Of a stretch of DNA of 38,914 nucleotides, positions 15,337 through 22,766 are shown piece after piece. The notes beneath the pieces were generated by a model that had not been told where the DNA came from, made no database searches, and was given only the letters and a program-made list of their open reading frames with translations. The stretch lies in the NCBI GenBank assembly GCA_026985525.1, contig JALSQI010000041.1, positions 1-38,914 on the forward strand. Reading direction: 5' to 3'. The first letter of the stretch is position 1; each line of letters opens with the position of its first letter. The position numbers were made by a program, and so were the translations under genes. This DNA is from Archaeoglobaceae archaeon. GTDB taxonomy: Archaea; Halobacteriota; Archaeoglobi; Archaeoglobales; Archaeoglobaceae.

Positions 15337-17202
15337 TTACCAGCCTCCAGCACCACCACCTCCAAATCCACTTCCACCTCCAAATCCTCCACCTCCAACT
15401 CCACCAAAGCTACTGCTATCTTTGGTAGAAGCAGCGGAGTAGAACGTGTGGAATCCTACAAAGATGTCGCTGTAATCCGTATCAATTTCAATGTCCAAAG
15501 CTTTCATAGCCTTTGCGACTTTATCTCCAACACCCAACGCCGTTCCATAAACCAACCATTCCTGCCACATTACTATATCCTCTGGAGCGTACTTCTTTAT
15601 CATAGCCATGTCCGATAGAAATCTGGCAAAAGCCCTCCACTGCAACCTTTCTTCGTATTCTCTTTCTTTCCACCTTCCAAAAAGCTGGGTGGGAGTTGCA
15701 AGGCAGGCTAAACTTTCGTAGAGAGTAGCTATTCCCATTGTTGCTGAGTACTGTTGGGGATAGACAAAGCTTACAGCAACTCCCGATATGGCAACTAAAA
15801 AGCTGAAAGCTAATAACTTGTATAAAGCCTTTTTACCTGAAACGTCTATAAATTCTTTTTCGACTTTTCTTTTGAGTTTTATTAAGTCACTACCTTGCAT
15901 TAGCATCAAGTTTTTGAGTTCAATTACCTCTTTCAAACCAGTTATCATAGATACCAAATCTTTCGTTTTTCTAAGATTTGCCGTGTCAAAAACTCCATCT
16001 TCAGAGTAGTTTTTAATGTAATCAAATACATTCCTTTCGTATTCGTCTTCTAACTCTTTTTCTTTGATAATTTTAATCCTGAGGTCTTTTTTCGAATTAC
16101 CATAAGTTTCCAGCTTAATTAACCCCATCTTTTCTAAGTTGAGTAAAGTAGCAAAGAAGCCATCAGCATCAAAAGTGAATGCATCACCTTTAAAAGCGAG
16201 GTTAACTACCCAAGGTTTTCTTTCATTATTTGGCACGTAACTCAGGAACTTGGGGACTGTAACTTTTATTTCCGAACCGTACTTAACGTAAATGTAGTAT
16301 ATTATTCCGGGAAATATAAGGGCTAATAGCACGTAAATGTAACTAATATTCTTAACAATTTTCATTTCCATTTCATAAAATTTATTTGCTGATACAGTTT
16401 TAGCCTGCACATTGCTTACTCTTTCCAAGTAACCGTTAACGGGTTTAGTCAAAAGCATTTCAACTTCTATCAATCCGTTTTCAGGACTTTTACCGGTAAT
16501 AATCCATCCATAATCAGTTTTCACAACTTTTGAATCTGGAAAGTGTACAAACAGCTCCTTCACTTCTTTCTGCGGGTCTAAAATCTTTAAAACTACTCTG
16601 TCGTATGGAACGTGTTCACTCGCCAGCTTTATGTTTACGTGATATAACTTACCATCAGTCTGGACTGGAGGAAATATTTCAAACTTGTACTTAACTTCAT
16701 AGTTTCCTGGGTTAAAGTGGTGTGAATTAACAATGCCTACTTCGTTCTTGCTTGCGTGTTCCCTTATTAACTCCCTCAGGTAGTGCGCATTGTATGCATC
16801 CCACAGATATATGTGTCCAAAGCAATCCACTGCGTATTCAGGATAACTACTGAAAATCGTTAGCAAAGTGTAGTGGGGCTCATTAGAACTGCTCTGAAAT
16901 AAGAGAGGAGCGTTAAACCTCCTGTAAAGAGCTCTGTACTTAGAAGTGTGTACGTGGTAAACGTAATCTTCTGTTAAGTAAAGATTAGAGCCTACTTTAA
17001 GCGTAGCAGAGTAGTCAGCTGTCAAAGGATTGCTAATTACGTTTACACCCATACCTTCATGAGAAAGCAAAAAAGCGAGAAAAACGATAACTGATATGCA
17101 GAGGAAGAGAGATATCAATTGCCCTTTTTCCTCAAGTTTTCTCGAAATAGCAAATAGAATTAATAAAGGTATCAGAGAAACGAGTGCAAATGCTAGAAAC
17201 AT
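15337..17202 (-). CDS. DUF2207-family membrane protein with Gly-rich tail
   Basis: A 621-residue membrane protein of unknown function. It has two N-terminal hydrophobic segments (about 1-20 and 28-48), an extracytoplasmic beta-rich domain (about 60-285), a membrane helix near 292-312, a cytoplasmic winged-helix-like domain (about 325-450), more helices near 470-520, and a tail made almost only of Gly, Phe and Ser ending GGAGGW. This architecture and tail are typical of DUF2207 (YciQ-like) proteins. It begins 10 bases after lemA with GGTGGTG as binding site, and DUF2207 and LemA are often neighbours. The role is probably at the envelope but unproven. Confidence 0.8.
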   Translation of the reverse strand: MFLAFALVSLIPLLILFAISRKLEEKGQLISLFLCISVIVFLAFLLSHEGMGVNVISNPLTADYSATLKVGSNLYLTEDYVYHVHTSKYRALYRRFNAPLLFQSSSNEPHYTLLTIFSSYPEYAVDCFGHIYLWDAYNAHYLRELIREHASKNEVGIVNSHHFNPGNYEVKYKFEIFPPVQTDGKLYHVNIKLASEHVPYDRVVLKILDPQKEVKELFVHFPDSKVVKTDYGWIITGKSPENGLIEVEMLLTKPVNGYLERVSNVQAKTVSANKFYEMEMKIVKNISYIYVLLALIFPGIIYYIYVKYGSEIKVTVPKFLSYVPNNERKPWVVNLAFKGDAFTFDADGFFATLLNLEKMGLIKLETYGNSKKDLRIKIIKEKELEDEYERNVFDYIKNYSEDGVFDTANLRKTKDLVSMITGLKEVIELKNLMLMQGSDLIKLKRKVEKEFIDVSGKKALYKLLAFSFLVAISGVAVSFVYPQQYSATMGIATLYESLACLATPTQLFGRWKEREYEERLQWRAFARFLSDMAMIKKYAPEDIVMWQEWLVYGTALGVGDKVAKAMKALDIEIDTDYSDIFVGFHTFYSAASTKDSSSFGGVGGGGFGGGSGFGGGGAGGW

Positions 17203-17212
17203 AGTTCACCAC

Positions 17213-17794
17213 CTAAACGTTCCAATCGAGTTCGGGTCTTCTCTCCACACTTTCTTCAAAGTGTAAGTATTCTAACTTCTTCAAACCCATTAAGCTTGCA
17301 ATTATGCCGTCCGGAATTATGTCCATTCTCGTATTGTATTCCTGAACTACATTGTTGTAAGTGTATCTCAAACGGGCAATTTCATCTTCAACAGACTTAG
17401 CAGAACTCATGAGTTCCTGCACAACGCTTGAAGTTTTAAGTTCTGGATAGTTCTCAACGCTAACAATTATGTTTCCTAACAAACCTCTCGTCTCAGCATC
17501 TATTTTTTGCAAATCCTGAGGAGTTGACGCTTTCATAACTTCAGTTCTCATCTTAGTCACTCTTTCAAAAGTATCTCTCTCGTATCTCGCGTAACTCTTA
17601 ACGGATTCGAGCAATTCGCTTAGTAAGTCGAGTCTTTTCTTCATAGCAACTTTTATCTGATTAAACGTTGCTTCAGCCCCATTTTTGAGTTGCTGAAATC
17701 TGTTGTATATAGCTCCAATGTAAATGGCTAATGCAAATACGATTAAAGCTATTATTACTAAAAAACCTATTGTTAGTAATGTTGACAGATTCAT
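17213..17794 (-). CDS. lemA: LemA-family membrane protein
   Basis: 193 residues. One N-terminal membrane helix (about 6-29) is followed by a long coiled-coil domain. The family signatures are YNRFQQLKNGAEATFNQIKV, then LDLLSELLESVKSYARYE, and the distal YNNVVQEYNTRM. The function of LemA proteins is not settled. The helix-bundle domain faces out of the cell in related proteins. It is the first gene of the lemA-DUF2207 unit. A TATA-like ATTTATAAAAGT (minus strand of 17813-17824) is centred 25 bases before ATG 17794, and no binding site is present, so leaderless. Confidence 0.9.
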   Translation of the reverse strand: MNLSTLLTIGFLVIIALIVFALAIYIGAIYNRFQQLKNGAEATFNQIKVAMKKRLDLLSELLESVKSYARYERDTFERVTKMRTEVMKASTPQDLQKIDAETRGLLGNIIVSVENYPELKTSSVVQELMSSAKSVEDEIARLRYTYNNVVQEYNTRMDIIPDGIIASLMGLKKLEYLHFEESVERRPELDWNV

Positions 17795-20978: not shown

Positions 20979-21956
20979 TCAGCTTTCTCTCGTCTTGGCT
21001 GCGATAAGGCAACCTCTCGCTACGCTGAAGAGTGGATCTCTTGCAACCCTTATTTCAGAAACGTTAACCGGCAAGCCTATTTCACTTAACCTTTCCTCGA
21101 AAAGAGACTTAAAGCCTTTTGGCTTAGAAGTACCTCCTGCAAGGACTACTGGAAATTCTACCGCTGGTGGTGTTACCTCCGCCAACTTTCTCGCAAGAGT
21201 TTCCACGATGTTAGAGATCAATTGGTCGTAGTAAATTGCCAAAGCTCCTTCTACACTTCCAAGCTCAACTTCTTTTTTAAGTTCAAAGCCGCTTTCCTTT
21301 ATTGCACACACTTGCTCTCTCGACATTCCAGTAGCTTTTGCTACATTCTCATCAATCCAGTCTCCTCCCTTCGCTATGCTGAAAGATACTATTGGAGCTG
21401 CAAAATAAGCGGCAGTAACGTTCGTCATTCCAGCACCAAAGCTAACACCTATTCCAGTAAAACTCGTATCAGCTAATTCAGAGTAAACGACTGCCAACCC
21501 CTCGTCTATCACGTATGGTGTGTAACCTATTTTCTTTATCAGAGCCTCCATGGTTTTTCTGTGGTAGAGAACTTCAATATCCGAATCTATCGGTTTTGCT
21601 GGAGAAGATATGCAAACAGTCTCTCCAGCATACTCAGGAGTTCCAACGACTTTTTCAATTAGTAGCTTTATAATCGGAATAGCCTCTTTTTCTTCTGGGC
21701 TGAGTACTCCAGACTTCATAGGTCTCCTAGTACTCTTTTTGAAAACAGTAGCAAACCTCAAAGCATCATCTCCAAGCACGTAAATTTTATTACCTTTTAT
21801 CACGTAAGCTACTCTCGCGTTGTCCAGCATCATCTTCGTCATGTCGTTGTAGTCTAATTCAAGGAAAGCATTTCTCTGCTGAACGAAAACGATCTCGTCT
21901 CCTTCCATCTCGGAGCATATTATGTTCATAGTCCCGACATCCAAACCCTTGGACAT
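20979..21956 (-). CDS. Actin-like ATPase (ParM/MreB/FtsA superfamily)
   Basis: Member of the actin/Hsp70 ATPase superfamily, 325 residues, filament-forming size. Motifs in order: phosphate-1 GLDVGTMN at residues 4-11, an inter-domain segment VISEGLAV-like (VIDEGLAVVYSEL near 150), phosphate-2 GIGVSFGAGMTNV near 165-177, and the adenosine motif PVVLAGGTSKPKGF near 277-290. It is not a close match to any named family I know. I choose ATG 21956, which has GGAGGTGG six bases upstream, 13 bases after the preceding gene. A start at 22004 would overlap that gene and place the binding site inside the frame. It directly follows an unknown four-helix membrane protein. Confidence 0.8.
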   Translation of the reverse strand: MSKGLDVGTMNIICSEMEGDEIVFVQQRNAFLELDYNDMTKMMLDNARVAYVIKGNKIYVLGDDALRFATVFKKSTRRPMKSGVLSPEEKEAIPIIKLLIEKVVGTPEYAGETVCISSPAKPIDSDIEVLYHRKTMEALIKKIGYTPYVIDEGLAVVYSELADTSFTGIGVSFGAGMTNVTAAYFAAPIVSFSIAKGGDWIDENVAKATGMSREQVCAIKESGFELKKEVELGSVEGALAIYYDQLISNIVETLARKLAEVTPPAVEFPVVLAGGTSKPKGFKSLFEERLSEIGLPVNVSEIRVARDPLFSVARGCLIAAKTRES

Positions 21957-21969
21957 GAAAAACCACCTC

Positions 21970-22719
21970 CTAAGAAAGCTTACCTTTAATCTTACTCTCT
22001 TCAATCATTTTTAGTACCTTTGCAGCGTTATCAACTTCACCAACTTCTTTTTTAGCAACTCTTCTACCACCTTCTCTCAACATCTTAAGCTTTTCAGCTT
22101 CTGGAACTGAATCTTTAACCCTTACGACGTTACCTCTGTAATTTCCATCTTTTAAAGCTGAACCAACTACAAAGTTCTCTTTTGGTTCTACGATTTCTAT
22201 ATCTAACACTTTGTCAAAATCTGGCTCTATTAACTTTGCCTCTTCAATTTCTATGTCTTCTTCGATCTTCTTCCTTAGCTTCTTTTTCTCAGTGTAAGTC
22301 GTTTCCTTTCTAATCTCTATCCCCGGTGCTTTTTCGAGCAATCTCAAAACTGCCTCAGCAAAAGAGCTACTGAAAAATAAAACCAAGCCGAGAGCGTAGA
22401 GTATTGCTACGTAAATTACTTGAGGGTAATACCAGTATTCTGGATACATCAATACGAATAGTACGACAGCGAGAGTTGTTAGAGCAAAAGCGGCAATTGT
22501 TGCAGGTCTGTATCTCTTAAAACCGTACATTGCATTTACTCCGTATAGAGCCATTGGAATAGCTATTCCAATAATCACTCCAACGATTTCTATTTGAACT
22601 GGATTGGAATACCTGTTTACTTGAAAAATCGCTATCAGCGCAAGGCCTATCAGTATTAAGAATACACCAGCAGCGAAAATCATTGAAGGTAGATAGTACT
22701 CCCTGTCCCGCCGTCCCAT
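21970..22719 (-). CDS. Four-helix membrane protein with charged cytoplasmic tail, unknown
   Basis: 249 residues with no recognised family. Four hydrophobic segments are seen (about 11-32, 41-66, 72-93, 98-118), then about 130 charged residues with Lys/Glu-rich stretches (EKKKLRKKIEEDIEIEEA near 144-160) and a helical end. The positive RR near residues 3-6 suggests a cytoplasmic N-terminus and tail. It heads an operon with its own promoter and is followed 13 bases later by an actin-like ATPase, so it is a candidate membrane anchor or partner for that protein (inference). Confidence 0.75.
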   Translation of the reverse strand: MGRRDREYYLPSMIFAAGVFLILIGLALIAIFQVNRYSNPVQIEIVGVIIGIAIPMALYGVNAMYGFKRYRPATIAAFALTTLAVVLFVLMYPEYWYYPQVIYVAILYALGLVLFFSSSFAEAVLRLLEKAPGIEIRKETTYTEKKKLRKKIEEDIEIEEAKLIEPDFDKVLDIEIVEPKENFVVGSALKDGNYRGNVVRVKDSVPEAEKLKMLREGGRRVAKKEVGEVDNAAKVLKMIEESKIKGKLS

Positions 22720-22740
22720 TGAGCGAGAGTTAACAGGAAA

Positions 22741-22752
22741 GGATATAAAATT
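22741..22752 (-). promoter_or_regulatory. TATA element of the membrane protein / actin-like operon
   Basis: The minus strand reads AATTTTATATCC, centred 27 bases before ATG 22719, and no ribosome binding site precedes that ATG. It lies in the 47-base gap after queC and marks the start of a separate five-gene unit. Confidence 0.55.
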
Positions 22753-22766
22753 ATCGCTTTAACGTT

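Follow-up and report, generated by a model that had tools for sequence, protein, structure and literature searches.

What is made by the two adjacent genes, one for an actin-like ATPase and one for a membrane protein, that lie together in this stretch of Archaeoglobaceae DNA (38,914 nt in full, hereafter the window), and do their products work together? The initial annotation had described a 249-residue protein with four membrane helices and a charged tail, followed 13 bases on by a 325-residue actin-superfamily ATPase, and had suggested that the two, neither of which seemed to fit a named family, might form an undescribed cytoskeletal or shape module. The features on which the analysis turns are these:

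22741..22762 (-): BRE/TATA-like promoter element TTAAAGCGATAATTTTATATCC, near-identical and at equal distance from the ATG in five congeneric genomes
21970..22719 (-): DUF7139 membrane protein gene, 249 aa, PF23600 match, predicted four TM helices and a tail
22327..22719 (-): four-TM module, residues 1-131, AlphaFold2 helices, predicted N-in/C-in
21973..22326 (-): cytoplasmic tail, residues 132-249, a volactin-specific module by the tail profile
20979..21956 (-): volactin orthologue (actin-like ATPase), 325 aa, PF25216 match, ATG at 21956
21924..21947 (-): phosphate-1 motif GLDVGTMN, residues 4-11, Asp6 invariant in 81 of 81 sequences
21420..21443 (-): phosphate-2 motif SFGAGMTN, residues 172-179, Ser172 and Asn179 invariant in 81 of 81
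21129..21146 (-): adenosine motif VLAGGT, residues 271-276, GG invariant in 81 of 81

Identity of the actin-like ATPase

The ATPase matches the Pfam Volactin profile (PF25216) along nearly its whole length, with residues 1-320 aligned to profile positions 1-321 (449 bits, E = 1.5e-134, cut-off 35). The MreB_Mbl profile (PF06723) also scores above its cut-off of 27, at 44.4 bits, which is one tenth of the volactin score, and the NCBIfam mreB model reaches only 35.7 against a cut-off of 365.75; MreB is thus not the best full-length match. Scores fell below the cut-offs for salactin (PF25229, 14.6 bits against 27.1), for the crenactin NCBIfam equivalog (13.5 bits against 630) and for FtsA (Pfam, 19.5 bits against 31.8). 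A DnaK-like protein or a 2-hydroxyacyl-CoA dehydratase activator, either of which would have placed the ATPase in a non-filament family, had been named as the identity that would overturn the proposal, and no such match occurred: CoA_E_activ scored 15.1 bits against a cut-off of 125.4 and DDR 13 bits. Based on these profiles, the window ATPase is an added member of the named volactin family and not an unknown ATPase, and the statement that neither protein fits a named family did not survive. The three nucleotide-binding motifs that had been read from the sequence are all present.

Volactin (VolA, HVO_2015) was described in Haloferax volcanii in 2024 as a protein that forms dynamic, shape-controlling actin filaments and is required for timely disk formation (PMC10869688). 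These filaments are reported to meet the membrane by their tips, not lengthwise, and their binding factors are called unknown (PMC10869688). Volactin also influences tissue-like multicellular development (PMC7617734). All of the experimental evidence for polymerisation, contact of filament tips with the membrane and a role in shape comes from the Haloferax volactin (PMC10869688).

Among solved structures, those of MreB and MamK come closest in fold to the AlphaFold2 model of the window ATPase (pLDDT 91), and PilM and FtsA are also among the matches of the fold and sequence searches. Ser172 and Asn179 align with Asp residues in MamK, and haloarchaeal volactins, with those of Haloferax among them, have the same substitution. 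With Ser and Asn in the phosphate-2 motif in place of the Asp of MamK, volactin may arrange its catalytic metal in its own way. The lack of this Asp, together with the recovery of PilM and FtsA in both kinds of search, could mean that the ATPase does not polymerise outside the haloarchaea and acts there as an adaptor of the PilM/FtsA kind, which simply binds a peptide in its partner's tail. We consider this improbable, since the closest relatives in sequence and fold are the polymerising MreB and MamK, since the same Ser and Asn occur in Haloferax volactins, a relative of which assembles into filaments in the cell (PMC10869688), and since identity to the window protein across the volactin family is 50-97%.

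Some haloarchaea encode a giant second volactin (L143:5078-8641, L144:4880-8434 and L145:5085-7412). In these proteins, of 775-1187 aa in total, an N-terminal volactin domain (206-393 bits) precedes a coiled-coil-like stretch of 450-850 residues, an unusual actin fusion.

The membrane protein and the layout of the locus

The membrane protein matches PF23600 (DUF7139) at 47.4 bits, above the cut-off of 30, and the domain is matched by all 40 of the aligned homologues, the window protein included (E ≤ 0.01). To our knowledge, DUF7139 is a family name to which no function has been attached. The four membrane helices claimed initially hold up: there are four hydrophobic segments, and AlphaFold2 predicts four confident helices at residues 3-32, 40-64, 71-91 and 100-130 (pLDDT about 83-96). 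A positive-inside pattern in 38 of the 40 homologues places the N-terminus, the middle loop and the tail on the same, cytoplasmic side. The tail is charged and mostly disordered, with three short helices (142-162, 206-215 and 226-245) predicted by AlphaFold2 at low confidence in the window protein; a hydrophobic-moment test did not find these helices to be significantly amphipathic.

The domain also occurs with other C-terminal partners, namely CHAD in Methanosarcinaceae-type genomes, a long array of DUF1508 repeats in haloarchaea, and a type II/IV secretion ATPase (T2SSE) in one Archaeoglobaceae genome; examples of such fusions are found at L133:2619-5525, L141:3644-5449, L142:5046-6869 and L212:1-2166. 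These domain arrangements are as expected if DUF7139 is a membrane module with a partner determined by the cytoplasmic C-terminus, the volactin-linked tail being one version.

The main rival to an anchoring role reverses the direction of control: volactin, acting as a switch or scaffold driven by ATP, would position or gate the DUF7139 protein, whose own membrane activity could be, for example, sensing, transport or lipid handling. The fusions to CHAD, DUF1508 and T2SSE suggest that the function of the domain may exceed anchoring, the DUF7139 gene is the first of the pair, and a plain anchor would not require four membrane helices, so that the protein may have another activity. Against this, the DUF7139 protein shows no evident catalytic or channel-like motif, and the only invariant residues among the 40 homologues are F88, G111 and two tail leucines. 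Similarly, sequence and fold searches of the PDB with the membrane protein gave nothing significant, with no structural match below E 0.35. On this evidence we think it unlikely that control runs from volactin to an activity of the membrane protein, and we favor a membrane partner that serves the filament.

The shared TATA box that had been claimed for the two genes is real. The block TTAAAGCGATA-nn-TTTATAT, at about 22743-22762, lies ∼27 nt 5′ of the ATG of the DUF7139 gene and is kept in five further congeneric genomes, in which the surrounding DNA is not kept. The stop of the DUF7139 gene is separated from the volactin ATG by 13 nt in the window. A gene for an AI-2E-family transporter begins 4 nt 3′ of volactin and is followed by a UMP kinase gene with a 4 nt overlap, while queC lies 5′ of the pair; the arrangement of volactin, transporter and UMP kinase genes fits an operon within this genus. 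We considered the transporter and the UMP kinase as members of the module and dropped them, as they adjoin the pair only in close relatives. Elsewhere in the window (15337-17794), the list of open reading frames includes a LemA-like gene and then a gene for a 621-aa membrane protein, whose Gly-rich C-terminus resembles DUF2207 proteins.

Association of volactin with the DUF7139 tail across archaea

That the pair might be confined to this genome had been set as a second test, and this was not the case. A scan of prokaryotic genomes yielded 276 volactin relatives, of which the best 80 were analysed as named loci. These 80 come from Archaeoglobaceae, Methanophagales (ANME-1), Methanosarcinaceae and Argoarchaeum, from metagenome-assembled genomes titled Thermoplasmatota (an assignment by title only) and from haloarchaea, including eight Haloferax loci. 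The DUF7139 gene is directly upstream of volactin on the same strand in 69 of these best 80, with a gap of -17 to 308 nt (median 78). In the remaining 11, DUF7139 is 0.4-2 kb upstream (four loci) or downstream (two), the contig ends (four), or there is none within 5 kb (one). Thus, among the loci of the best 80 that are not cut by a contig edge, 75 of 76 have DUF7139 within 5 kb of volactin. In Haloferax, a tailed DUF7139 gene is upstream of volactin in seven of the eight loci, and the eighth begins at a contig edge.

We also surveyed 295 genomes of the phylum, in 69 of which volactin scored above its cut-off and in 94 of which DUF7139 was matched. A co-occurrence search of this kind had been proposed at the outset, and its result is that a tailed DUF7139 protein is found in all 68 genomes with an intact volactin, encoded next to it in 59 and elsewhere in the genome in 9. 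The nine genomes that keep both genes apart indicate that the link between volactin and DUF7139 is not only one of map position. The suggestion that the genomes with separated genes are Haloferax was rejected, as the named Haloferax loci show the pair adjacent. The 69th volactin genome (G134, family f5) holds volactin fragments with in-frame stops and frame changes (G134:C75:129-701, L236) and has no DUF7139 anywhere, an apparent joint loss of the pair.

To separate the tail from the membrane domain, profiles of each were built from the volactin-linked DUF7139 proteins. All tailed DUF7139 proteins score at least 51 bits with the tail profile. Since this profile was itself made from volactin-linked sequences, part of their high scores is built in, and the weight of the test lies with the separated copies and with the zero scores of other proteins. 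In all, 54 DUF7139 proteins of other contexts (a few loci being counted twice and some coming from the same genomes as volactin-linked copies) match the membrane domain and have a tail score of zero. In a tree of the membrane domain only, the separated copies fall inside the volactin-linked haloarchaeal clade. Among the 26 genomes with DUF7139 and no volactin, no tail was found in any protein that could be classified (all but a few very weak DUF7139 matches, L166-L171); six of these 26 have salactin, and their DUF7139 proteins are without the tail. The similarity between the tails of haloarchaea and those of the other lineages is weak but collinear (hhalign probability 50%, E 1.6e-4).

Gene order can persist through vertical inheritance, and a common history alone might explain why the two genes are neighbors, without any link in function. 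We regard this as very improbable. Clustering of neighboring genes revealed no other partner of the pair conserved beyond close relatives, all other neighbors being shuffled; the co-occurrence holds in the nine genomes with separated genes; and the pair is jointly present or absent within single genera (in g6, G010 has both genes and G021 neither; in g11, G015 has both and G218 has neither an intact volactin nor DUF7139). Chance adjacency is effectively excluded. A functional partnership of the two proteins is well supported by this genomic evidence, which also bears out the initial pairing of an actin-superfamily protein with a membrane protein, probably as a cytoskeletal or shape module.

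The volactin family and the DUF7139 name were already known, and the pairing remains the only undescribed part. The description of the system as undescribed therefore fails for the ATPase, published in 2024, and stands for the pairing alone, which is absent from the main texts searched; an earlier mention is possible, for instance in a preprint or in a supplementary note of PMC10869688, a paper that flags hvo_2013-hvo_2020 there as a shape-related region.

A proposed membrane partner for volactin, and known systems

We propose a two-component archaeal actin module in which volactin would be the ATP-dependent filament protein and the DUF7139 protein its dedicated membrane partner, with four helices in the membrane and both ends in the cytoplasm. 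The long charged tail, with its three short conserved helical segments, would contact volactin, and the protein would probably capture, nucleate or regulate filament ends at the membrane, such that volactin cables could reach across the cytoplasm and influence cell shape. We think it reasonably likely that the DUF7139 protein anchors volactin filaments at the membrane via its tail and may nucleate or regulate them. That the two proteins bind one another, that filament tips are anchored in this way and that the module acts on shape in Archaeoglobaceae are inferences, as are the direction in which the interaction works and its chemistry.

Genes for tubulin-type proteins lie beside the pair in two lineages: ftsZ is directly upstream of it in an ANME-1-type lineage, and cetZ is ∼0.6 kb downstream of volactin in the eight Haloferax loci. 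Two FtsZ proteins are encoded elsewhere in the window's own genome. A broader version of the proposal is that tailed DUF7139 is a dedicated receptor that captures or nucleates volactin tips, that it is ancestral to Archaeoglobi, methanogens, ANME archaea and haloarchaea, and that it links the actin with the tubulin-type cytoskeleton; we offer this tentatively, as a conjecture with somewhat less than an even chance of being right.

Volactin belongs to the very small number of archaeal actins whose role in the cell is known, and the attachment of its tips to the membrane is the gap that this partner may fill: DUF7139 is the best candidate for the factor tying volactin filaments to the membrane, and in Haloferax the matter becomes a single-gene question. 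The partner tracks volactin across deep archaeal lineages and adjoins it in the genetically tractable Haloferax. This distribution suggests that a shape-related actin module arose before the haloarchaea did and operates in hyperthermophiles and methane-cycling archaea.

Several known systems resemble the pair in part. PilM-PilN and FtsA are cases in which an actin-fold protein is tied to the membrane via a short peptide or helix, and the proposed module has in common with them an actin-fold protein tied to the membrane; the window ATPase differs from FtsA in that it is not a member of that family by its Pfam score. The bacterial MreB-RodZ and MamK systems provide the nearest folds (MreB and MamK) and the same logic of an actin with a membrane protein. 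RodZ, however, is a single-pass helix-turn-helix protein unrelated to DUF7139; neither the membrane protein nor any of its 39 homologues matched a helix-turn-helix family, which sets it apart from a RodZ-like anchor. The mode of contact differs as well, in that volactin filaments meet the membrane by their tips (PMC10869688).

Salactin, the haloarchaeal DNA-partitioning actin, is also an actin-like archaeal ATPase, but its profile match to the window protein is sub-threshold and it is not accompanied by tailed DUF7139. In Archaeoglobaceae, salactin has its own operon, in which the gene of the salactin homologue precedes those of a coiled-coil protein and a ParA/MinD-like ATPase (L015:880-3356, L017:883-3260 and also L016), an arrangement that fits the reported role of salactin in DNA partitioning. 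The salactin profile scores above its cut-off in the H. volcanii control genome; a 2025 paper gives volactin as the sole identified actin homologue of this species (PMC7617734).

H. volcanii volactin differs from the Archaeoglobaceae protein in the acidic C-terminal tail of haloarchaeal volactins, which the latter lacks, and the published main text names no membrane partner for it (PMC10869688). The two nevertheless belong to one family over their full length, share the same motifs and, in Haloferax as in the window, have a tailed DUF7139 gene upstream.
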